A stretch of 64,000 bases of DNA, from the IMG/VR virus record IMGVR_UViG_3300030419_007641, positions 24,992-88,991 of that record; one strand, written 5' to 3'. Positions 1,292 to 17,665 of this stretch are shown here, piece by piece. Both the position numbers and the translations under genes were made by a program. This stretch comes from a virus. A model generated the notes under the pieces. The model was given only the letters and a program-made list of their open reading frames with translations. It searched no databases and was not told where the DNA came from. How positions within the stretch are numbered: position 1 is the first letter of the stretch; the number at the start of each line of letters is the position of its first letter.

Positions 1292-1669
1292 TTATGCTTT
1301 TGTGTATGGTTCGGGTCGGTATAGAAGAAGATGCCACTCGCCATTCTTATCTGGTGCGGTGGAATCTTTCTCCTTCTTCACGCGCAGTACAATGAAACGT
1401 CTCTTCTTGTCGCCCATTGCATCGGTTGCATCTCTCTTTGAGATAGAATCATCTTTTGATTTAAATGTAACCTTTTGTGATCCTCTCTTATCTCCAGCTG
1501 TAATAACAATTGAGGTAGCTTTGAATGTCTTTTCTAATGCCCCACGGACATATACTTTACATCCAGCTCATGTTACGCCGGTCATTTCGAGTGTATATTT
1601 TGTTTCGTCTCCTTTAGCTGCTGTTGCCAGTGCAAAGAGACCCAGTGTTGCTAAGATAAGCTTCTTCAT
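1292..1669 (-). CDS. candidate secreted selenoprotein, heavy-metal-associated-like domain (in-frame TGA)
   Basis: The frame starts at the ATG at 1669 and reads to a TAA at 1292 with a single in-frame TGA at 1570-1568 (residue 34), giving 125 residues. Residues 1-20 form a signal peptide (MKKLILATLGLFALATAAKG). The mature part begins with EMTGVT-U-AGCK, that is UxxC where HMA/MerP-type metal-binding domains have CxxC. It continues as a plausible beta-alpha-beta domain (about 25-95) with a charged tail. A 6-bp hairpin with a GUG loop starts its apical loop 23 nt after the UGA, within the range I recall for bacterial SECIS elements. TGA is a normal stop in other genes here. Alternatives are a nonsense mutation or a base error at a TGT/TGC Cys codon. 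A secreted metal or redox role is inferred. Confidence 0.7.
1537..1551 (-). promoter_or_regulatory. SECIS-like hairpin downstream of in-frame UGA
   Basis: Minus strand ATGTCC-GTG-GGGCAT: six base pairs (one G-U) closing a 3-nt loop beginning with G-U. It lies inside the coding sequence, 16 nt after the UGA at 1570-1568. Bacterial SECIS elements lie immediately 3' of the Sec codon and carry a G in the first loop positions. A second, nearer hairpin (nt 4-22 after the UGA, loop AAGUA) is possible but is too close to the UGA for that consensus. Confidence 0.55.
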
Positions 1670-1692: not shown

Positions 1693-2001
1693 TTATCTAC
1701 GATTGCGACGTCTGTTCTGATATCTATCTTCACGTGCGCGTTTGTTCTCCCATCGGTGCCTCTGCTCGTGTGCTCTGCGTTCGTCATCACGTGCTCCTCC
1801 AAGTAATCCTCCGGTTCCCGCTCCTACCGCTCCGCCGATTGCGGCGCCTTCTAGTCCTCGTCCTGATTGATGTCCGATGATTGCTCCTGCTCCTGCTCCT
1901 AAGAGGCCTCCGATTGCTGCTCCTCGTTTACCTGATGGACCACATGAGGTGAGACATAGAGCGATGAAAGCCGTTGCGATGAATAATTTACGAAGTTTCA
2001 T
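1693..2001 (-). CDS. glycine-zipper lipoprotein, 102 aa
   Basis: The N-terminus is a lipoprotein signal with lipobox L-T-S-C (Cys about residue 20). It is followed by a glycine-zipper segment (about 27-70) rich in GAAIGGLLGAGAGAIIG-type repeats, the outer-membrane 'glycine zipper' pattern. The tail (71-102) is strongly basic and Arg-rich. It probably inserts in the host envelope; a role in superinfection exclusion or envelope change is only a guess. Its composition and signal look bacterial, suggesting acquisition from the host. It sits next to another secreted protein gene (1292-1669). Confidence 0.75.
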   Translation of the reverse strand: MKLRKLFIATAFIALCLTSCGPSGKRGAAIGGLLGAGAGAIIGHQSGRGLEGAAIGGAVGAGTGGLLGGARDDERRAHEQRHRWENKRAREDRYQNRRRNRR

Positions 2002-2028
2002 TATAATATTATATATTCTCTTTACGCG

Positions 2029-2631
2029 TTATCCAATGTTATCTTTGGATGCATCATAATACTTCTCTAACATATTGTTCTTAAGATCTCCGTATGTTAT
2101 GGTTTCAAACGGCCAGTAGTTGACATCTGTTACAACATCACTGTAACCTGGTAATTCTGATTTACCATAAGCCACATCCCATACCATTGTCCGTCTAGAG
2201 TTAGCGAATCCTGTATGTGAGTGCTCGTCTTTGATCTTTGCGAACACTTTACCTACCAGTCCATACCATCCGACATATGTATTCTCGTATGGGTCTCTCC
2301 TCTTTAGAACTTTTGGCACGTACCATTCATTGTTACTACAGTTAAACGGTTCATCGATTCCTAGCTCTTCTAAACCATAATGCACCATAAGGCAGCCGTG
2401 ACCTTTGTGGTTTTCTGAGCGCCATCTTGAATCACGCATACAGACAACGCGGTCGTCTGGTTGTTTGAGGATGAAGTCAGCAATCTCTCTGAGGGTTACT
2501 TCCTTCTTTGCTGGCTTATCCGTGTCTTCGAAGCGCTCCAAGTCCTCTTCGGTTGGCTCTTTATCCTTATGGATCATGCCCCAAGTCTTGTATTGTCCTT
2601 CTTGTTTGGGACGTTTGTTACGATCGCTCAT
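2029..2631 (-). CDS. hypothetical protein, 200 aa
   Basis: A soluble protein. The first 45 residues are charged and probably disordered, followed by a short helix (LREIADFILKQP). The C-terminal two thirds is rich in aromatic residues (WYVPK, GWYGLVGKVF, YWPFETITYG) and holds several His/Cys, but no ordered metal site that I recognise. Its start ATG overlaps the TGA of the 40-aa gene upstream (ATGA), so the two are translationally coupled. Function unknown. Confidence 0.7.
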   Translation of the reverse strand: MSDRNKRPKQEGQYKTWGMIHKDKEPTEEDLERFEDTDKPAKKEVTLREIADFILKQPDDRVVCMRDSRWRSENHKGHGCLMVHYGLEELGIDEPFNCSNNEWYVPKVLKRRDPYENTYVGWYGLVGKVFAKIKDEHSHTGFANSRRTMVWDVAYGKSELPGYSDVVTDVNYWPFETITYGDLKNNMLEKYYDASKDNIG

Positions 2632-2750
2632 TGTCGTGATTTTTTTACGTGATGACAGTTCTCATTCCACCGTTTACCTTCGAAGTAGACGAAAACTCCT
2701 CTCCATCTCGCGACGAGTTCCCTCGCTGATTGCTTGTGTGGCTCTTTCAT
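2628..2750 (-). CDS. small hypothetical protein, 40 aa
   Basis: Starts ATG at 2750 within the stop of gene 2747-2944 and ends in a TGA overlapping the ATG of gene 2029-2631. Both junctions are ATGA overlaps, which strongly supports the frame despite its length. The protein is basic, with an amphipathic first half (MKEPHKQSARELVARWRGV) and a C-H-H tail. Function unknown. Confidence 0.6.
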   Translation of the reverse strand: MKEPHKQSARELVARWRGVFVYFEGKRWNENCHHVKKSRQ

Positions 2751-2944
2751 GATCCTGCAAGTGATGGCTGACCGAGTGCTTGATTTAATGCGTCTTCAGG
2801 AATATCTGCGTGCGCTTTACGGATTTGTCGCATCATGACTCTGTTTTGCAGTCGATACTGACGCACAATTTTGTTCTTGGCGTTGCGTTTCAGCTGCTTG
2901 CGGTGCTTGCGCTTACTGAGTTTGTTGTGTCGTACTTTATTCAT
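2747..2944 (-). CDS. small very basic protein, 65 aa
   Basis: The first 40 residues are almost all Lys/Arg/Asn/Gln/His (MNKVRHNKLSKRKHRKQLKR...), suggesting nucleic-acid binding. The C-terminus is neutral. It overlaps the downstream gene by ATGA and its own start overlaps the end of gene 2944-3168. No named family recognised. Confidence 0.65.
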   Translation of the reverse strand: MNKVRHNKLSKRKHRKQLKRNAKNKIVRQYRLQNRVMMRQIRKAHADIPEDALNQALGQPSLAGS

Positions 2945-3168
2945 TATGCCTTGCCTGATGTGAGAATAATACGGGAGACTTTCTTCTCCATGTTAGTTCC
3001 GGGGTTACTGGTTGTGTCCTTCTGGATAATCTGTCCAATCTCAATAGACCCTTTGCTTTTTGTTGGAGCGCTGCCCATTCCCCTCGCTGCTGGAGGGTTA
3101 AGGTCGATGTGAACTGGAGTATCCTCTTTGAGTTTCTCCAAAAGTGAAATTAAACGTCTTACTGTCAT
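2944..3168 (-). CDS. hypothetical protein, 74 aa
   Basis: Starts MTVRRLISLLEKLKEDTPVHIDL, a helix followed by a short strand, the start of a pattern common in small phage proteins that describe 'fraction/quantity' beta folds. The middle is Gly/Pro/Ser rich. Preceded by a GGAAC element at 3176-3197. Function unknown. Confidence 0.65.
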   Translation of the reverse strand: MTVRRLISLLEKLKEDTPVHIDLNPPAARGMGSAPTKSKGSIEIGQIIQKDTTSNPGTNMEKKVSRIILTSGKA

Positions 3169-3194
3169 ATGTCTATATTATATGCGGGTTCCTT

Positions 3195-3350
3195 TTACTT
3201 ATATTTTAAATCCATGCCGTTGTGATTATTAATAAATTTTAACACTGTGTGCATGATTTCTTTTGCTAGTGCGTCTTGTGCAGCTTGTGACTGAAGATTA
3301 ACTTCATCGTCCGCCCAGCGCTTTAGAATTTCTTGAATAAGGTCTTTCAT
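3195..3350 (-). CDS. small helical protein, 51 aa
   Basis: MKDLIQEILKRWADDEVNLQ... followed by helical sequence with regular hydrophobic spacing and a basic C-terminus. The ATG is preceded by TAAGAGT, the same bases found before other array starts, and the stop runs into the GGAAC element at 3176-3197. The 26-codon frame upstream ends 5 nt before its start. Confidence 0.55.
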   Translation of the reverse strand: MKDLIQEILKRWADDEVNLQSQAAQDALAKEIMHTVLKFINNHNGMDLKYK

Positions 3351-3354
3351 ACTC

Positions 3355-3435
3355 TTAATTGTGAAGTTGTCCGTAGGTAGCTTCTGCTTCTGCAGTAATC
3401 TCTGCGCTACTCATATCTTCCTCATACCTTTTCAT
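3355..3435 (-). CDS. possible micropeptide, 26 aa
   Basis: The frame MKRYEEDMSSAEITAEAEA... ends in a TAA 4 bases before the next ATG (3350), consistent with coupled translation. It is acidic and helical. Length alone gives little support; placement between tightly packed genes is the main evidence. Confidence 0.35.
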   Translation of the reverse strand: MKRYEEDMSSAEITAEAEATYGQLHN

Positions 3436-3440
3436 ACTCT

Positions 3441-3614
3441 TTACCATTTAATTCGGCAGTTATACTGAGGAGTACCTTGTCCTGTCATTTGCCTCATTCG
3501 TTCTCTTCTCTTACGTTCGTATTCTCCTTCTTTATGATATACGTTAGTGTAAGAACCTTCTGTTACTCTCTTGATCGTATTAGATCTAATCTGTTGCTTT
3601 GCGTGCTTTGCCAT
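3441..3614 (-). CDS. small basic protein, 57 aa
   Basis: I place the start at the ATG at 3614 (MAKHAKQQIRSNTIKRV) because a GGAAC element (3619-3639) ends 5-6 bases upstream, exactly as for neighbouring genes. The longer frame from 3722 would read through that element and the upstream gene. It is highly basic with an Arg/Lys-rich centre (YERKRRERMRQM). Possible nucleic-acid binder; function unknown. Confidence 0.6.
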   Translation of the reverse strand: MAKHAKQQIRSNTIKRVTEGSYTNVYHKEGEYERKRRERMRQMTGQGTPQYNCRIKW

Positions 3615-3636
3615 TATCTTAATATATCTGAGTTCC

Positions 3637-3768
3637 TTACTTCGCTTCTCCGGTACCATCGCAACATGCGCAAGATACCTTAACTCTATCAAGAGTACCG
3701 TCATATTCAATGCATGCCTCAATATGATAACCTAAGCCATTACAAGGATAACACTTATTATCTTTCAT
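3637..3768 (-). CDS. DnaJ-type zinc-finger microprotein, 43 aa
   Basis: The frame starts MKDNKCYPCNGLGYH and ends CACCDGTGEAK. It contains two C-x-x-C-x-G-x-G motifs (Cys 6/9 and near residues 33/36), which is the repeat that binds one zinc in the DnaJ cysteine-rich domain. A free-standing pair of such motifs could bind one zinc and mimic or recruit part of the Hsp40/Hsp70 system (inference). Its TAA stop is the first three bases of a TAAGGAAC element. Confidence 0.6.
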   Translation of the reverse strand: MKDNKCYPCNGLGYHIEACIEYDGTLDRVKVSCACCDGTGEAK

Positions 3769-3769
3769 A

Positions 3770-3991
3770 TTAAGAGCACCAGTAGGTTTCAGATGACATA
3801 GAAGCGTAGAATGGAGTTCCCTCCTCCTCCCAGAACTTAGTGCCGAACCTCGCGCATCTCTTGCGCAGGTAAACGGTCCCGTTGACTTCTTTCCTTGTGA
3901 TAATTCCGTCCTCGACGTCGAGGACCTTCTCGTTTGTATCCGCCGGGAGTGGTCCCTTTGCGAATCTTGATTCTGTATTTAATCCTGGCAT
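3770..3991 (-). CDS. hypothetical protein, 73 aa
   Basis: Starts MPGLNTESRFAKGPLPAD. A beta-rich middle (VLDVEDGIITRKEVNGTVYLRK) with Lys/Arg and a C-terminal aromatic segment ending WCS. The start lies 5 nt after a TATAATA box (3997-4003). No family recognised. Confidence 0.65.
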   Translation of the reverse strand: MPGLNTESRFAKGPLPADTNEKVLDVEDGIITRKEVNGTVYLRKRCARFGTKFWEEEGTPFYASMSSETYWCS

Positions 3992-3996
3992 ACTCT

Positions 3997-4016
3997 TATT
4001 ATACGCTGGTTCCTTT
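3997..4016 (-). promoter_or_regulatory. GGAAC-TATAATA intergenic element
   Basis: Minus strand AAAGGAACCAGCG, TATAATA, AGAGT, then ATG of gene 3770-3991. The TATAATA box is centred where a -10 hexamer would put transcription start at or next to the ATG. Confidence 0.55.
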
Positions 4017-4027
4017 AAATTGTTCGC

Positions 4028-4081
4028 TGGTGAGCCGAGGGTTTAATCATCCTCTAACTTAGACTCTCTGGTCACTCACCA
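4028..4081 (-). other. unassigned structured spacer
   Basis: A 7-bp stem (TGGTGAG / CTCACCA) encloses about 40 nt on the minus strand between genes 4104-4448 and 3770-3991. It lacks the T-arm and anticodon arm of a tRNA and no U-tract follows. It may be a small structured leader or a decayed gene. Confidence 0.2.
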
Positions 4082-4103
4082 TTCAGGAGATCAGAACTCC
4101 TTA

Positions 4104-4448
4104 CTAAACACTGTACGGGGGCAGCATGGGGTCTCCGTGCTGAGGGATAGCTGAGTGGTCTAATGTGTAGACCCACTTGTTTTTCACTTTCTCCCGTTCT
4201 CCTCCAGCAGCAGTTACTACGCGGTTGAGATGTCGGTGAATGCGATCGTTAAAGTCGTCCCAATTCCACCACGCTTTAAATTGTTCTCTGTAGAGCTTTG
4301 CGAGCTGAGCATATCGCTCTCGCATTATCATCGTGGGTGAGCTGAAATATTTCCTAACATCCATAGAGGTAAACTTTCCCTCAGTTAGAAAGGAAAGCCC
4401 CTTTAATTGATATTCTAGATACTTGTCAAATGTCCACTTAATCTGCAT
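4104..4448 (-). CDS. hypothetical protein, 114 aa
   Basis: Starts MQIKWTFDKYLEYQLKGLSF. The middle is helical with aromatic clusters (FKAWWNWDDFNDRIHRHLNR). The C-terminus ends in a short segment (KNKWVYTLDHSAIPQHGD) that resembles the end of a winged-helix-like domain, but this is weak. The start sits 5 nt after the TATAATA box at 4454-4460. Confidence 0.65.
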   Translation of the reverse strand: MQIKWTFDKYLEYQLKGLSFLTEGKFTSMDVRKYFSSPTMIMRERYAQLAKLYREQFKAWWNWDDFNDRIHRHLNRVVTAAGGEREKVKNKWVYTLDHSAIPQHGDPMLPPYSV

Positions 4449-4453
4449 ACTCT

Positions 4454-4473
4454 TATTATAGTCGAGTTCCTAA
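4454..4473 (-). promoter_or_regulatory. GGAAC-TATAATA intergenic element overlapping a stop codon
   Basis: Minus strand TTTAGGAACTCGAC, TATAATA, AGAGT, ATG. The TAG stop of gene 4470-4640 is part of the element, so stop codon, box and next start fit in about 25 bp. Confidence 0.55.
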
Positions 4474-4640
4474 ACCCACTCGGCGTCGTCTGTGACCATA
4501 TCCTCTTCGGTAATCAGCACCTGAAAACCATCGAGCTTCAGCCGCGCAGCTTCTTCATAAGCCTTCTTGTACGGTACGGGGCCGTAATGCGCTACTTTTA
4601 CGAAATGTTTATTGAAGATTTCTACGATGTATTTTTGCAT
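4470..4640 (-). CDS. small hypothetical protein, 56 aa
   Basis: The frame MQKYIVEIFNKHFVKVAHYG... ends in TAG inside the GGAAC element. It is beta-alpha in character: a first strand, a helix (YKKAYEEAARLKLDGF) and a second strand (QVLITEED), like a small ferredoxin-like or 'DUF'-type phage fold. The function is not recognisable. Confidence 0.6.
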   Translation of the reverse strand: MQKYIVEIFNKHFVKVAHYGPVPYKKAYEEAARLKLDGFQVLITEEDMVTDDAEWV

Positions 4641-4644
4641 GATA

Positions 4645-4896
4645 TTAGTCTTTGGATCCGTCTACGTAGCGTGTGTTTGCTTTATTTTCAACACTGTCAT
4701 GAGCTTCTCCGGTATTGTACCCCATGTTATAGTCTGCAATTTGGCGACGGGTCATATTCTCCTCCTCAACGCGCGTTGAACTGTACGTTGCTCCGGTAAA
4801 GTAATGCGGACTTGCTGGTCGCTTATAATATTTGTCTGCAGAACCTCTGTCGTATGGTCCTCCATGTCGGTAACGGTCTGAATTATCTGCTGGCAT
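4645..4896 (-). CDS. hypothetical polar protein, 83 aa
   Basis: I favour the ATG at 4896 (MPADNSDRYRHGGPYDRGSADKYY). The protein is polar, rich in Tyr, Asp, Arg and Gly and probably disordered at its N-terminus; the C-terminal 40 residues are more helical. The frame is also open from a GTG at 5031, but that extension reads like non-coding sequence and contains palindromes (see 4897-5049), so the long form is less likely. Confidence 0.55.
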   Translation of the reverse strand: MPADNSDRYRHGGPYDRGSADKYYKRPASPHYFTGATYSSTRVEEENMTRRQIADYNMGYNTGEAHDSVENKANTRYVDGSKD

Positions 4897-5049
4897 CTTT
4901 TTGAAAAATTGGCGGTTTTGATTTCCGCAATGCAACTTGACCCCGCCTAACATTTGCACCGCTGTTGTGGTTATACTCCTCTTTCTCTGTGGGTAGGAAG
5001 CCGACCCTTGCGCAAGGCTGTATTGCCTCACTTGCCCTTTTGGGCCTCA
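4897..5049 (-). other. possible structured 5' leader
   Basis: Between the TATAAT box near 5055-5060 and the favoured start at 4896. It contains a perfect 12-bp palindrome CCTTGCGCAAGG (about 5007-5018) and a GCCC-AAAA-GGGC hairpin (5034-5045). Most other genes in this array have almost no leader, so this 150-bp spacing is unusual. Alternatively translation starts at the GTG at 5031. Confidence 0.3.
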
Positions 5050-5054
5050 AATTA

Positions 5055-5073
5055 ATTATAAGCTAGTTCCTTA
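5055..5073 (-). promoter_or_regulatory. GGAAC-TATAAT intergenic element overlapping a stop codon
   Basis: Minus strand: the TAA stop of gene 5071-5319 is directly followed by GGAACTAGCT and TATAAT. Confidence 0.5.
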
Positions 5074-5319
5074 CTTGAGATATTTGTTAACTGTTGAATC
5101 GAAAGTCTCTTCGTTCTCTGACTCGATTGGTCCAACTACTTCATGATGAGGCGCCCATTTGCCTTTGTGAGCTGCTACCCAAGCATGCGCTTCTTCTTCT
5201 GTGAATTTCTCCGCTGCTCCGATACTGGTAAGATCTCCTTTATCTAAACCATCACTGTCGCGATTCTTAATAAATCCTAAACGGCCTTTTCCTCCTTGTC
5301 GTATTACGTAATGACTCAT
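5071..5319 (-). CDS. hypothetical protein with C-terminal FDxxVxxYL motif, 82 aa
   Basis: Starts MSHYVIRQGGKGRLGFIKNR. The middle is helical and ends in an acidic linker followed by ETFDSTVNKYLK. That last motif recurs at the C-terminus of gene 8192-8389 (ETFDEAVSRYLEK) and resembles the N-terminal FDKQASKILRE motif of genes 7557-7868 and 7873-8187. This suggests a common targeting or docking peptide. Core function unknown. Confidence 0.65.
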   Translation of the reverse strand: MSHYVIRQGGKGRLGFIKNRDSDGLDKGDLTSIGAAEKFTEEEAHAWVAAHKGKWAPHHEVVGPIESENEETFDSTVNKYLK

Positions 5320-5327
5320 AATGTTAT

Positions 5328-5525
5328 TTAATGAATGTTTGCGTACTTATGCGCTACTACCAGGAGGTTGTTGTAATCTCCAGCCATCGACTCCTGCATG
5401 TACTTGTCGATGTACTCTTGGTTGAATCCTGCTTTTCGCAGAGCTCGGGAAACAACGCCCATGACTGCGAACGCATTACCGCTAACTCCTGTTAACTTGA
5501 CTGTTGGTTTGGTTGGATCTTCCAT
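5328..5525 (-). CDS. hypothetical protein, 65 aa
   Basis: Starts MEDPTKPTVKLTGVSGNAFAVMGVVSRALRKAGF. The segment 'KLTGVSGNAFAVMGVVSRALRKAG' has the look of small phage proteins with a short strand and an amphipathic helix. A similar sequence (V-K-L-x-G-x-x-G-N-A-F) is, from memory, widespread in phages without known function. Confidence 0.65.
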   Translation of the reverse strand: MEDPTKPTVKLTGVSGNAFAVMGVVSRALRKAGFNQEYIDKYMQESMAGDYNNLLVVAHKYANIH

Positions 5526-5528
5526 TTT

Positions 5529-5729
5529 TTACTTATGTACCAGTGTGAATGCAATTGCAGATTTTCCAGGAATCACCTGAATATCTGCACTAGTAACTTC
5601 TTTCTGAACTTCCGGGCCGTCGAGGACTCCTGAAGTTCCGTGCTTTCCAATGATAACTGGAGTGCTTGGTCCGACGACTTGCTCCTTTTCCAGCCACTCA
5701 ATTTCTGCTTTCAGCTCTTTAATGGTCAT
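5529..5729 (-). CDS. hypothetical protein, 66 aa
   Basis: The start is set at ATG 5729 (MTIKELKAEIEWLEKEQ) because the GGAAC-TATAATA element ends just upstream; the longer frame from 5759 runs into the sigma gene. An N-terminal coiled-coil helix is followed by a beta-rich segment (TPVIIGKHG ... DIQVIPGKSAIAFTLV). It is the first gene downstream of the sigma factor. Confidence 0.65.
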   Translation of the reverse strand: MTIKELKAEIEWLEKEQVVGPSTPVIIGKHGTSGVLDGPEVQKEVTSADIQVIPGKSAIAFTLVHK

Positions 5730-5732
5730 ACT

Positions 5733-5754
5733 CTTATTATAACAGGGTTCCTTA
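5733..5754 (-). promoter_or_regulatory. GGAAC-TATAATA intergenic element overlapping the sigma gene stop
   Basis: Minus strand: TAA (stop of the sigma gene) then GGAACCCTGT, TATAATA, AGAGT, ATG of gene 5529-5729. Confidence 0.55.
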
Positions 5755-6915
5755 CGCACTCTCTAAGAATGATTCAACTCTCCTGACTTTCAAGGGGCTT
5801 GACATTTTACGGATTGATTTAGCTTCAATTTGTCTAATTCTCTCACGAGTCACCTCAAACGCATTACCGACTTCTTCTAACGTTCTATTGATACCATCTG
5901 GCATGCCCATCCGCATTCTCAATACTCCGAGCTCACGTGCTGTCATTGACTCAATAGACTCTTTGATTTTGTCTTTGAGCTGACTAAACTTAGTACCTTC
6001 AAACTCTACCTCCTCATCCTCATCCTCAATAAAGTCAGCGATAGTAGTATTACCGTTATCACCCACGGGTGTCTGCAATGAGATGGTTTGCTTAGCAAGA
6101 TTGAGAATGTTTTGCACTCTCTCAGGTGCCATTCCCAATTCATGCCCGAGCTCCTCTACAGAAGGCTCCGATCCAATCTCTTGCAGCATTGCGCGCTGCT
6201 TCTTTAAGATCTTATTGATTGTATCAATCATGTGCATCGGCACTCTGATCGTTCTGCCCTGCTCACATACAGCAGCGCTAATTGCTTGACGTACCCACCA
6301 AGTGGCATAAGTCGAAAACTTGTAGCCTCTCTTGTACTCAAACTTCTCAACAGCTTTCATCAACCCCATGTTACCCTCTTGGATAAGATCCAGAAGACTA
6401 ACTCCGCGCTTGTTATACTTCTTAGCCATCGCAATCACCAATCTCAAGTTAGCTTCGATCATCTCAGATTTTGCTTTGTTGAGATCTTTGAGAGCCTTAA
6501 TCATCTCTTCATTGCCAAGATTAGCAACCTCCTCGCACCAGCCATTGATGACCGATTGCTTGAAGTGAAAGCGCTGGTAGACTCTTCCCGGGTCCTTAGA
6601 CGCGTTTGTACGAGTCGTTAGGACATCAAGCAGATGCTTGAGGCCTTTCATGTAGCGATCTTTCGACTCAGTATTAACTACATCACTGAGCTTGACTTCT
6701 CCGTTTAAGATTTTATGTCCCAGCTCTGTGTAACGCCCGTATGTCCCTACCTGAGCATCTAAAATGCGGTTAGCTTTTCTTTGCGCCCTTTCAATGCGCT
6801 TGAAGATATTAACTTCATCTTCTTTTGTGAGCAACTCATGTTTGCCCATTTCTCGTAAATATACCGCGACTGCATCTCCAGTCGCCCTCTTTGATTTTAT
6901 TTGATTATCCGCCAT
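5752..6915 (-). CDS. primary-type sigma-70 factor, 387 aa
   Basis: A sigma70-family RNA polymerase sigma subunit. A region 1.2-like helix is at about 12-42 (AVAVYLREMGKHELLTKEDE). Region 2 is at about 150-225, with the core-binding and -10-recognition signature from ANLRLVIAMAKKY through LIQEGNMGLMKAVEKFEY to YATWWVRQAI. Region 3 is at about 226-285. Region 4 is at about 322-385, with a helix-turn-helix (TLEEVGNAFEVTRERIRQIEAK). T4-type phages normally encode only the small divergent late sigma gp55, so an RpoD-like factor with all -10 and -35 recognition regions is unusual. It probably captures host core polymerase for a subset of phage promoters (inference). It is transcribed from canonical promoter copy B (6932-6960). 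Confidence 0.92.
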   Translation of the reverse strand: MADNQIKSKRATGDAVAVYLREMGKHELLTKEDEVNIFKRIERAQRKANRILDAQVGTYGRYTELGHKILNGEVKLSDVVNTESKDRYMKGLKHLLDVLTTRTNASKDPGRVYQRFHFKQSVINGWCEEVANLGNEEMIKALKDLNKAKSEMIEANLRLVIAMAKKYNKRGVSLLDLIQEGNMGLMKAVEKFEYKRGYKFSTYATWWVRQAISAAVCEQGRTIRVPMHMIDTINKILKKQRAMLQEIGSEPSVEELGHELGMAPERVQNILNLAKQTISLQTPVGDNGNTTIADFIEDEDEEVEFEGTKFSQLKDKIKESIESMTARELGVLRMRMGMPDGINRTLEEVGNAFEVTRERIRQIEAKSIRKMSSPLKVRRVESFLESA

Positions 6916-14015: not shown

Positions 14016-14091
<76 letters not shown>

Positions 14092-14148: not shown

Positions 14149-14487
14149 ATGAAACGTATTGGTGATAGAGAAGATCCTATTTGGAAAACATTCATTGAAA
14201 GTAAAAAGCCGGACTTCCTTGATTTTGACAAGGATGGCAACAAAGAAGAGCCAATGAAGGATGCTCTCAAGGATAAAGATATAGAACATAACTGAGCTAC
14301 TCACGTAGCGCCGGTCGGTGCTGAAGAAAATGAGGAGTTCAGAGTTATTGATCATAGCTTAACGTCACAGGGAATAATTGAAGAGTACTATGTTGATGTT
14401 AATGGCTTTTTAGTGACGATGAAAGCTAGTGACGTTAAAATTATTCGCGAGCAATCTCATAAACATCCTAAGAAAAAGAAAAAATAG
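14149..14487 (+). CDS. candidate selenoprotein (in-frame TGA with SECIS-like hairpin), 112 aa
   Basis: The ATG at 14149 and TAG at 14485-14487 are in one frame broken only by TGA at 14293-14295 (residue 49). The readthrough protein has an acidic N-terminal half, then HN-U-ATHVAPVG and a beta-rich C-terminal part (residues 65-98) with a Lys tail. From memory, T4-like marine phages carry small proteins with C-A-(S/T)-H-V at a comparable place, so the TGA would replace Cys. The mRNA just after the UGA folds into AGCGCC-GGUC-GGUGCU, and its GGUC loop begins 18 nt after the UGA. This is very close to the loop and spacing I recall for E. coli fdhF SECIS. Codon use continues normally beyond the TGA. 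Alternatives: pseudogene or base error. Confidence 0.75.
14306..14323 (+). promoter_or_regulatory. SECIS-like hairpin, GGUC apical loop
   Basis: T306-G323 wobble, then AGCGCC (14307-14312) pairs with GGTGCT (14317-14322; one G-U), loop GGTC (14313-14316). Its placement directly 3' of an in-frame UGA and a GGU in the loop match bacterial SECIS recognition by SelB. Confidence 0.65.
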
Positions 14488-14492
14488 AATGA

Positions 14493-15965
14493 ATGAAGGC
14501 AAGCGAACATAGTTATTATGCTCCGGTTGCTAATGTTGTTTATGTACCAGAACAGGACCCTATAGAAAATATAGTACGTCGACAAGAAAATCGTAGCAAA
14601 GCAATCTCATTAGGCATTTCTATATGCATCATTGGTCTGTTAATGATGCTACTAGCATTTTTAACTATTGCCATTTTAAAAGATGAACAGATAGAATTAA
14701 TAGTATCTGCGACACAGGGCCAAAAAGAAGTAAAGATTAATAAAAATACCTTTGCTACTTCTGTTCGCAACAGTAGACCCTCTAGACCTGATAGCAAGCC
14801 AGCTGATGTTATCGTATCTAATAATCTTTCAAATATATCATTACCGTCTGTTGATAGTTTAGCGCCAACTATAGGTACTAGTTTTAATGATGGGTTTGGC
14901 GCCGGTGGATTTGGGACTGGTATTGGAGGCGGCTTTAGAGTACCTACAGCTATGGGAGGTAGATGTGGTACATCTGATAGAATTAATCGTTTAATTAAAG
15001 CAGGTGGTAAGAGAAAAATGGACACTCAGGTCTTAAATGCTCTGAGATGGATCAAATCTCAGCAGAAGCCGGATGGTTCTTTTGGTACAAAGTTTCCTAT
15101 CGCAATGACATCGTTTGCTTTACTAGCATATAGCGGTCATTGTGAGACTGTTGATTCACCTGAGTTCGGTAAATCAGTTAAAGCTGCAATTGAGTATCTC
15201 TTGGATGTATCAGATAAAGGTAAGGGATATATTACAACCTCTCGTGATCGTAACCTTTCATATGAGCATGGCATTGCAATGTATTCATTAGCAGAAGCTT
15301 ATTCTATGAATAAGAATGCTCGTACCTCTTTTAGGAGAATATCTCCTGCGCTTAAGGTAGGCATTCCAATAGTAATTGAAGGTCAGACAAATGGAGGTGG
15401 GTGGTTATATTCCTATGGATCAAATGGTACAGGAGACTTATCTGTCTCTGGGTGGAATATACAAGCGTTAAAGGCAGCCGAGCTAACTGGCATTAAATTT
15501 TCTGGACTAGAAAGAGCCAAACAAAAAGCTGTCCGTTATTTGAAGTCAGCTGAAGATCCTAATGGCACTGATGGCTACTTTAGATATAGAGTAAATGATG
15601 GTCAACGAGGTAAATTATCTCTCACAGGAGTAGGAGCTTACAGCGCTAGAATGCTGGGGGCACCTTCGAAACTCGAAGACAAATCTTTAGATTTAATTAT
15701 CTCTAAGAAACCTAAATCATTTCCTCCTAACCAAGCATATGCTTGGTACTATCATTCTTTAGCAGCATTTCAAAAACAAGGTAACCACTGGAGGCAATAT
15801 AACGATTCGTATCAAACACTAATATCTGAATCACAGCAGAAAGACGGGTCATGGCTTCCTTCCGGTGGTCATGGTCAAGTTGGACCTGATGGAGCATTAT
15901 ACTCAACATGCCTCTGCACTTTAATGCTGGAGGTCTATTATAGATACCTACCCTCTTCTAAATGA
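14493..15965 (+). CDS. membrane-anchored prenyltransferase/squalene-cyclase-repeat protein, 490 aa
   Basis: Residues 1-38 are cytoplasmic, a single membrane helix lies at about 39-63, then a linker with a Gly-rich patch (131-158). The C-terminal domain (about 165-490) has alpha-alpha-barrel repeats with Q-x-x-DGSFG-type signatures (QQKPDGSFG, NGGGWLYSYG, QQKDGSWLPSG), as in prenyltransferase and squalene oxidase/cyclase repeats. The cyclase catalytic DxDD motif is not evident, so it is likely a binding or structural relative. Proteins of this architecture are typical of Planctomycetes and Verrucomicrobia from memory. Its TGA stop overlaps the next start. Likely an acquired host gene acting at the membrane or periplasm. 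Confidence 0.8.
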   Translation: MKASEHSYYAPVANVVYVPEQDPIENIVRRQENRSKAISLGISICIIGLLMMLLAFLTIAILKDEQIELIVSATQGQKEVKINKNTFATSVRNSRPSRPDSKPADVIVSNNLSNISLPSVDSLAPTIGTSFNDGFGAGGFGTGIGGGFRVPTAMGGRCGTSDRINRLIKAGGKRKMDTQVLNALRWIKSQQKPDGSFGTKFPIAMTSFALLAYSGHCETVDSPEFGKSVKAAIEYLLDVSDKGKGYITTSRDRNLSYEHGIAMYSLAEAYSMNKNARTSFRRISPALKVGIPIVIEGQTNGGGWLYSYGSNGTGDLSVSGWNIQALKAAELTGIKFSGLERAKQKAVRYLKSAEDPNGTDGYFRYRVNDGQRGKLSLTGVGAYSARMLGAPSKLEDKSLDLIISKKPKSFPPNQAYAWYYHSLAAFQKQGNHWRQYNDSYQTLISESQQKDGSWLPSGGHGQVGPDGALYSTCLCTLMLEVYYRYLPSSK

Positions 15966-16123: not shown

Positions 16124-17665
16124 ATGGTCTCCTTTAAAGTATATTATGAAGCTAATATAGCTAATGCTGAAGATGTCAAGAACGAGATAGTAACCCTTTT
16201 GCAGCAGAATAGGCGCCAGGGCAAGCCTAACTTAGAGCCCGGTGGGCCTATCTATAAGTGGTTTACTAATAACCTTATGAAGTTTTTAACCGGTCCGGCA
16301 ACTAGTGTTTCATTCCCTTTCCAGCAATCATTAATAGGTTTAGAACCTCATAAGTATAAAGAAGGTGAACCAGAGTGGATGAAGAAAGATGATGTTGTAG
16401 ATTATACTGAGGTTGGTGATTGGAATAAGATGGAGCATATAATGGATTACTTTAACTCTTTATCAGATCGTGAAAGAGAAAAGATAGTTAAAAAGCCATA
16501 TGAGCAAGTTGATAAAGAAGTAGCACAATGGGATAAAGAGTTAGCTGAACAGGAGAAATCATCAGAGGGTCGATTAAAAAAAGATAAAGACTACGAGGTT
16601 CTTTATAAGGACGGTGACTATACATGGGTTAAGTTAAAGACTAAAGCAGCCTATGAATGTGAAGGAGAAGGTATGGGTCACTGTGTTGGAGGATATGATC
16701 CTGATAACCCCAATAACACAATAATTTCTCTTTGGGATAAGAAAGGCGAACCTCATGTAACATTAGAGGTTAGCGGGAAAGAAGACGGTTATCAGGAGAT
16801 GGTACAAATCAAAGGAAAGCAAAATGCTGCGCCGACGGAAAAATACAAAGACATAACTGCTAAATTTGTGCAAAGCTGGATGGAAGACCCAGAGTACAAT
16901 GAAGATCCAGATGAGCCAGATCGCGTAGTAGTTGGGGATGGCGACAATATAGGGATGATTTCATATGATGACTGGATGGGGGGATCTGGCCCTGGGAGAC
17001 ATTACTTTTTTCCAGACTCAAAACTATGGGAAAGGATATACAAAAAAGAAATTATTCCTGCTCAAAAAGACAGAATAGAAAAGAATAAAAAGGCAATACA
17101 TAAAGAGGAGGGCCAAACATACATAGACGGTAATCTGAATTTGGCGTATATGTATTTGAGAGAGATTCCTAAAGAGCTGGGAGTTGCAGTAGTTGAAGGT
17201 GATCTCAACCTACAGAGAAATCTTCTAACTAATTTAAAGAATAGTCCTGAACATGTCGATGGTGACTTATATGCTGGACAGAATTACATCGAAACACTTG
17301 AAGGTGGTCCTGAACATGTTGAGGGTGACTATAAAATAGCTTACAATAAGCTTAAAAATCTAAAGGGCATCGCGAAGTATATCGGCGGCGATCTTCACAT
17401 CGAAGGCAATCCTCTAGAGTCTCTGGACGGTGCACAGGACACAGTTGTTATGGGGAAAATTTTTGTTGGTGGATGGCCTATTCCCGATCGGTTCGAACCT
17501 AGGGCGTTACCTGCTCCGGTGCGCGGCCTTCACGGCGACCATCGCGGAAGTATTCGTGCCGGTGCACCTGACTTCCTACAGCCTGATGCGATAAGAGATG
17601 CTTTTAAGTGGCCTGATAAAGGTCGAACGGGCCTTACCTACCTTCCGCCGAGGACGCAGTACTAG
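16124..17665 (+). CDS. PcfJ-like protein with leucine-rich-repeat C-terminus, 513 aa
   Basis: The middle (about 160-270) contains ECEGEGMGHCVGGYD and downstream strands, matching the MxHCVGGY signature of PcfJ-like proteins found on plasmids and in phages (function not established). Residues about 330-450 form short repeats of the form P-E-x-V-x-G-D-L/Y with N/L-rich spacers, like bacterial leucine-rich repeats. The last ~60 residues are Arg/Pro/Gly-rich and encoded by visibly GC-richer DNA, so this tail may have a separate origin. It converges with gene 17662-17907, overlapping by 4 bp. Confidence 0.75.
   Translation: MVSFKVYYEANIANAEDVKNEIVTLLQQNRRQGKPNLEPGGPIYKWFTNNLMKFLTGPATSVSFPFQQSLIGLEPHKYKEGEPEWMKKDDVVDYTEVGDWNKMEHIMDYFNSLSDREREKIVKKPYEQVDKEVAQWDKELAEQEKSSEGRLKKDKDYEVLYKDGDYTWVKLKTKAAYECEGEGMGHCVGGYDPDNPNNTIISLWDKKGEPHVTLEVSGKEDGYQEMVQIKGKQNAAPTEKYKDITAKFVQSWMEDPEYNEDPDEPDRVVVGDGDNIGMISYDDWMGGSGPGRHYFFPDSKLWERIYKKEIIPAQKDRIEKNKKAIHKEEGQTYIDGNLNLAYMYLREIPKELGVAVVEGDLNLQRNLLTNLKNSPEHVDGDLYAGQNYIETLEGGPEHVEGDYKIAYNKLKNLKGIAKYIGGDLHIEGNPLESLDGAQDTVVMGKIFVGGWPIPDRFEPRALPAPVRGLHGDHRGSIRAGAPDFLQPDAIRDAFKWPDKGRTGLTYLPPRTQY

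Follow-up and report, generated by a model that had tools for sequence, protein, structure and literature searches.

The window, that is, the whole 64,000-nt stretch of DNA analysed here, is a piece of a 196,877-base virus record that carries terminase, tail sheath and baseplate genes and therefore comes from a tailed phage. At 14149-14487 on the plus strand it contains a frame that starts with ATG at 14149, ends with TAG at 14485-14487 and is otherwise open apart from a single TGA. An earlier note on this DNA had placed one in-frame TGA at codon 49, with GCT as the next codon, and this was borne out (14293-14295). The gene is flanked by a tRNA-Arg (14016-14091, minus strand) on one side and by a 490-aa ORF (14493-15965, plus strand) on the other. 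This ORF, directly 3′ of the gene, weakly matches a squalene-hopene cyclase C-terminal domain (E 0.004). A PcfJ-like protein is encoded at 16124-17665 (plus strand; Pfam E 1.6e-9), and the phage has a tmRNA gene outside the window (G000:C1:15777-16193, minus strand; tag AANKVVDFVLPQAEPQFALAA). The features discussed below are:

14149..14487, plus strand: candidate phage selenoprotein gene, 112 aa if UGA is read as Sec (U49)
14278..14484, plus strand: region coding for the U/C-A-T-H-V domain, 69 aa, with invariant H4, U/C6, V10, H26, Y37 and H61
14293..14295, plus strand: in-frame TGA, the proposed Sec codon, aligned to the invariant Cys of the phage family
14306..14323, plus strand: hairpin resembling a bacterial SECIS, in which a 7-bp stem closes a GGTC loop (14313-14316), with 17 nt separating the loop from the UGA
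1292..1669, minus strand: companion candidate selenoprotein gene, 125 aa, with the TGA at 1568-1570 as the codon for U34 of a UAGC motif

Read through the UGA, the protein consists of a variable N-terminal part (residues 1-44) and a C-terminal SH3/Tudor-like domain (residues 45-112). With the whole protein as query, most of the 70 matches covered only a common N-terminal stretch, PDFLDFDKDGNK, and not the Sec domain, and a tblastn search of named phages with the C-terminal domain gave no match. A Cys-containing family was first reached with a query that served as bait only, and was then rebuilt from real sequences: the bait led to cyanophages that have the domain, and an authentic member used as query led to 68 viral contigs. 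The domain begins with H-x-C-A-x-x-V (the A is sometimes S), followed by a middle His, a Tyr and a final His. The C-A-(S/T)-H-V proteins with Cys at the UGA site, which the earlier note had cited, are indeed real and are collinear with the UGA gene across the whole domain. A 40-row alignment revealed six invariant columns (H4, C/U6, V10, H26, Y37 and H61), and Cys occupies the UGA position in all 33 non-UGA rows. When the motif was masked, only 3 of 10,000 shuffles of the downstream sequence fitted the Cys-family profile as well as the real one, and intermediates connect the window gene to the Cys family by tblastn, down to 2e-7. The phrog_22379 and phrog_11470 profiles were matched by 38 and 35 of the 40 aligned members, respectively; the window member matched neither at E <= 0.01 but shares all the invariant residues and the fold. 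The Cys proteins, found in T4-like cyanophages and marine phages, thus have the same collinear domain and the same invariant residues as the UGA members, but they carry Cys in place of the UGA, usually lack the hairpin and have other N-terminal parts. Their domain often adjoins, or is fused with, a phrog_764 cytidyltransferase.

We then scanned viral contigs for every coding of H-N-UGA-A-T-H-V, and nine of the 10 matches proved to be true members with the domain continuing past the UGA. The UGA members comprise the window's phage and nine other viral contigs, with seven distinct sequence types in three architectures (window/L001; L164, L170 and L167/L168; L162/L165/L169 and L166). Allowing Asp at motif position two added only L186, a chance match. 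The UGA motif gave four matches in 257 Gb of prokaryote genomes, none of them real. In a tree the UGA members lie on one side of a branch with support 94/80, at which long branches meet; they may share one origin and hence not be fully independent, a placement that is not firm.

A close relative, the 22-kb viral contig L001, carries this gene, TGA included, at the corresponding location. The half before the UGA has diverged and rearranged between the two phages. Over the 63 codons after it we counted 12 synonymous and 9 nonsynonymous changes, with no new stop and with all gaps in-frame, and random placement of the same changes yielded equally many synonymous codons in only 0.07% of trials (p = 0.0007). 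The segments swapped before the UGA (14149-14292 in the window, 3001-3153 in L001), PDFLDFDKDGNKEEPMKDA in one phage and PDADKDGVPDWADKK in the other, are both acidic and D-x-D-x-D-G-like.

The earlier note had named three observations that would speak against a selenoprotein: a lack of purifying selection after the TGA, relatives with TAA or TAG at the site, and homologues that start after codon 49. None of them was made. The dN/dS ratio downstream of the UGA is 0.16 for the window versus L001 and 0.19 for L164 versus L170, and L162 differs there from L165/L169 by 0 nonsynonymous and 4-5 synonymous codons. Selection after the UGA was seen in every architecture, dS being saturated between L162 and L166, and purifying selection was found before the UGA as well as after it. 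With TAA or TAG in place of TGA, the motif gave eight viral-contig matches, and 0/8 were family members. A dying pseudogene, in which a Cys codon had mutated to a stop, would need just one base change (TGT/TGC to TGA), but phages that have diverged strongly retain the same TGA, dN past it is low with dS rising as far as saturation, and all indels are in-frame. The earlier note had considered pure decay less likely because two genes bear the same signature; the retained TGA, the low dN and the lack of TAA/TAG versions contradict it, and we regard decay as extremely improbable.

Homologues starting after codon 49 were likewise absent: in every UGA member the frame begins at an ATG before the UGA and stays open across it. 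This bears on the reading that two proteins are made, a short one stopping at the UGA and, from a start of its own, the domain behind it. L166 and L170 do have possible starts past the UGA, but the window has no ATG, GTG or TTG in the 15 codons that follow its UGA, conservation starts right at the UGA, and A50-V53 form part of the first strand of the domain. We therefore consider separate products very unlikely.

Downstream of the window's UGA, the GGUC-loop hairpin proposed in the earlier note, with its loop starting at nt 18, was confirmed as TAGCGCC (14306-14312), GGTC and GGTGCTG (14317-14323). Bacterial SECIS elements have been described by a loop of 3-9 nt, a stem of 4-16 bp, a G in the first two loop nucleotides, a distance of 16-37 nt from the UGA and an MFE of at most -7.5 (PMC13188914). 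The window hairpin (loop 4, stem 7, GGTC, 17 nt, -13.2) passes all of these limits, as do those of five of the seven UGA types in total; L167 and L170, whose hairpins reach just -5.3 kcal/mol, fail in our folds. The published limits by themselves discriminate weakly, since these loose bounds are also passed by 19/50 Cys homologues and 13% of the coding background. Hairpins were also compared under another criterion (G in the first two loop nucleotides, spacing 16-22, <= -4 kcal/mol). A hairpin of this kind follows the UGA in 7/7 UGA types; the corresponding figures are 3/50 for the Cys homologues (Fisher p = 4.5e-7, or 8.5e-4 when counted as three clades), 1.2% for coding positions taken in frame and 0/40 for TGA codons that are true stops. 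Hairpins about as strong as the window's (-9.1) occur at ~0.1% of in-frame coding positions.

All seven types have a loop of 3-4 nt with G in its first two positions, 17-21 nt from the UGA. The loops are GGTC (GCGCC-GGTC-GGTGC, GCACC-GGTC-GGTGC), GGT (AGTGGAA-GGT-TTCCACT, AGTGGAA-GGT-TTCTACT) or AGTT (CACTCA-AGTT-TGGGTG, and CATCCA-AGTT-TGGGTG in two types). The stems vary in sequence yet stay paired (GCGCC/GGTGC, GCACC/GGTGC, GTGGA/TCCAC, GTGGA/TCTAC, CACTC/GGGTG and CATCC/GGGTG), and protein conservation does not by itself account for the hairpin, because the amino acids encoded there differ among types. Against synonymous-codon shuffles, the hairpins of L162, L164, L166, L167 and L170 gave p = 0.003-0.037, whereas those of the window (p = 0.11) and L001/L171 (0.30) were not significant, in the window's case because A-P-V-G-A largely dictates the hairpin. 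The significance of the hairpin rests on the family, not on the window gene alone. An Rfam search of the UGA region returned chance matches only.

Taken together, these data suggest, with a probability of about 90%, that the gene encodes a phage selenoprotein in which host machinery reads UGA49 as Sec via the downstream SECIS hairpin. During infection, host SelB with Sec-tRNA would decode UGA49 as selenocysteine, directed by the bacterial SECIS hairpin that lies inside the coding sequence just past the UGA. The product would be a 112-aa protein with an SH3/Tudor-like beta-barrel and Sec in place of the invariant Cys of T4-like phages. From these comparisons we infer that Sec is the residue inserted, that the host supplies the machinery, and what chemistry the site has. 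It is much less likely that programmed or leaky readthrough produces an extended protein without Sec, a near-cognate tRNA inserting Trp, Cys or Arg. UGA is the leakiest stop codon, selection indicates that the frame after the UGA is translated, and no tRNA-Sec was found in the phage, all of which would suit readthrough. However, the UGA occurs at no position other than that of the invariant Cys, which is the classic signature of a Sec/Cys pair, and all UGA types have a hairpin of the type and spacing of a SECIS, which ordinary UGA stops lack. A readthrough switch also makes little sense in the L162 type, because just 35 aa precede its UGA.

Selenocysteine decoding at this one codon also differs from a variant code, in which UGA would be sense throughout the phage or its host. 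Few ORFs of the L162 contig stop at TGA (2/38 ORFs of >=150 aa), as such a code would predict, but the L162-type UGA gene has TGA as its own stop codon. TGA terminates 32/158 ORFs of >=150 aa in the window's phage, where coding coverage hardly grows if it is treated as sense. Screens indicate no in-frame TGA in the other conserved genes of this phage, and there is no tRNA with a UCA anticodon in the stretches scanned. A reassigned code is accordingly a most improbable explanation; elsewhere, the UGA-carrying phages use UGA as an ordinary stop. Neither SelB nor a tRNA-Sec above the cut-off was found in the phage contigs. Matches to the tRNA-Sec model in the window's phage coincide with ordinary Arg, Leu and Met tRNAs, and those in the other UGA contigs fall below the cut-off. 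With UGA a normal stop and no UCA tRNA, SelB or tRNA-Sec found, decoding would need host factors.

To gain insight into the putative product, we modelled the domain with AlphaFold2, leaving out alignment rows from annotated records. The prediction is a confident five-stranded barrel (mean pLDDT 85) that resembles the predicted structures of the cyanophage proteins with a TM of about 0.70-0.73. A PDB fold search with the model returned only weak SH3/Tudor matches, none better than E 0.18, and 14/40 members weakly match PF21196 (PcrA/UvrD Tudor domain; best E 0.026). In the model, strand 1 (residues 4-12) carries Sec, strand 2 carries H26 and strand 5 has H61 at its end. These strands are neighbours in SH3-type barrels, which would be compatible with a shared Sec/His site. 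Sec and the three invariant His would most likely form a redox or metal-binding site, a function for which we put the odds at about even.

The companion gene at 1292..1669 encodes a MerP/CopZ-like product of the periplasmic metal-binding type. Its profile matches are weak (4e-5 and 1e-4 to TIGR02052 and NF041115) and stay under the curated cut-offs. It resembles the MerP and UxxU selenoprotein families behind these models in its signal-peptide-like start and metal-binding-type UxxC, and it differs from them in being phage-borne, with a single UxxC and scores below those cut-offs. The earlier note had regarded it as another gene of this phage with the same Sec signature, a view now supported by a relative in another viral contig (L206, 1501-1884). 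This relative keeps the TGA (UGGC), the frame and an unchanged hairpin, ATGTCC-GTG-GGGCAT, with a dN/dS of 0.27 downstream. Two unrelated genes of the phage thus carry the Sec signature. Both genes named in the earlier note were on the list from a genome-wide screen for TGA-joined coding segments; the remaining segments, judged by eye, resemble anti-sense frames, low-complexity frames or pairs of neighbouring genes. A search of prokaryote genomes for the MerP-like gene, made to find the host, returned nothing. It is probable that the UGA members represent a T4-like phage lineage with a virus-specific Sec-for-Cys barrel family and varied N-termini, of which at least one phage also has a MerP/CopZ-like selenoprotein.

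The proposed system shares with bacterial selenoprotein families the pairing of UGA with Cys, the use of UGA as a stop elsewhere, and a hairpin that follows the UGA at 16-37 nt and has G in the first two nucleotides of its loop (PMC13188914). It differs in being phage-encoded, with no Sec machinery of its own found as far as searched. Virus-encoded selenoproteins that use host decoding are known from poxviruses, as the glutathione peroxidases of molluscum contagiosum and fowlpox (PMC8310308); those are acquired cellular enzymes of a eukaryotic virus, whereas here the viruses are bacterial and the domain is so far phage-only. Genes for tRNA-Sec have been reported in huge phages (PMC10747093), and a 2026 review of prokaryotic selenoproteins mentions neither phages nor viruses (PMC13188914). 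Our literature search, with subscription journals mostly outside it, turned up reports of tRNA-Sec in phages and none of a phage selenoprotein family, and 0/40 members match selenoprotein models of NCBIfam release 20 (June 2026; GOS_B NF041374 included, GOS_A of PMC2398784 unlisted) at E <= 10. This looks like a previously undescribed phage selenoprotein family. If so, phages make Sec proteins of their own, and part of their biology would be tied to the selenium supply and Sec machinery of the host. The UGA genes would then likely be mis-annotated, being cut at the UGA, and the search for hosts would narrow, as only Sec-decoding bacteria could give full support.

The N-terminal parts of the UGA genes in L164, L167, L170, L162 and L166 start MKTFIEHVIDE..., MKLTSKILREIIQEV.... 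They contain (L/I)-x-E-like stretches, which we take to recall T4 prohead-protease sites, and on this assumption the proteins might be head-packaged. In L166, a run of small ORFs surrounds the UGA gene (1812-6828, on the UGA-gene strand), and several of them share an N-terminus of the MKxTKSQLKEIIKEEL type.
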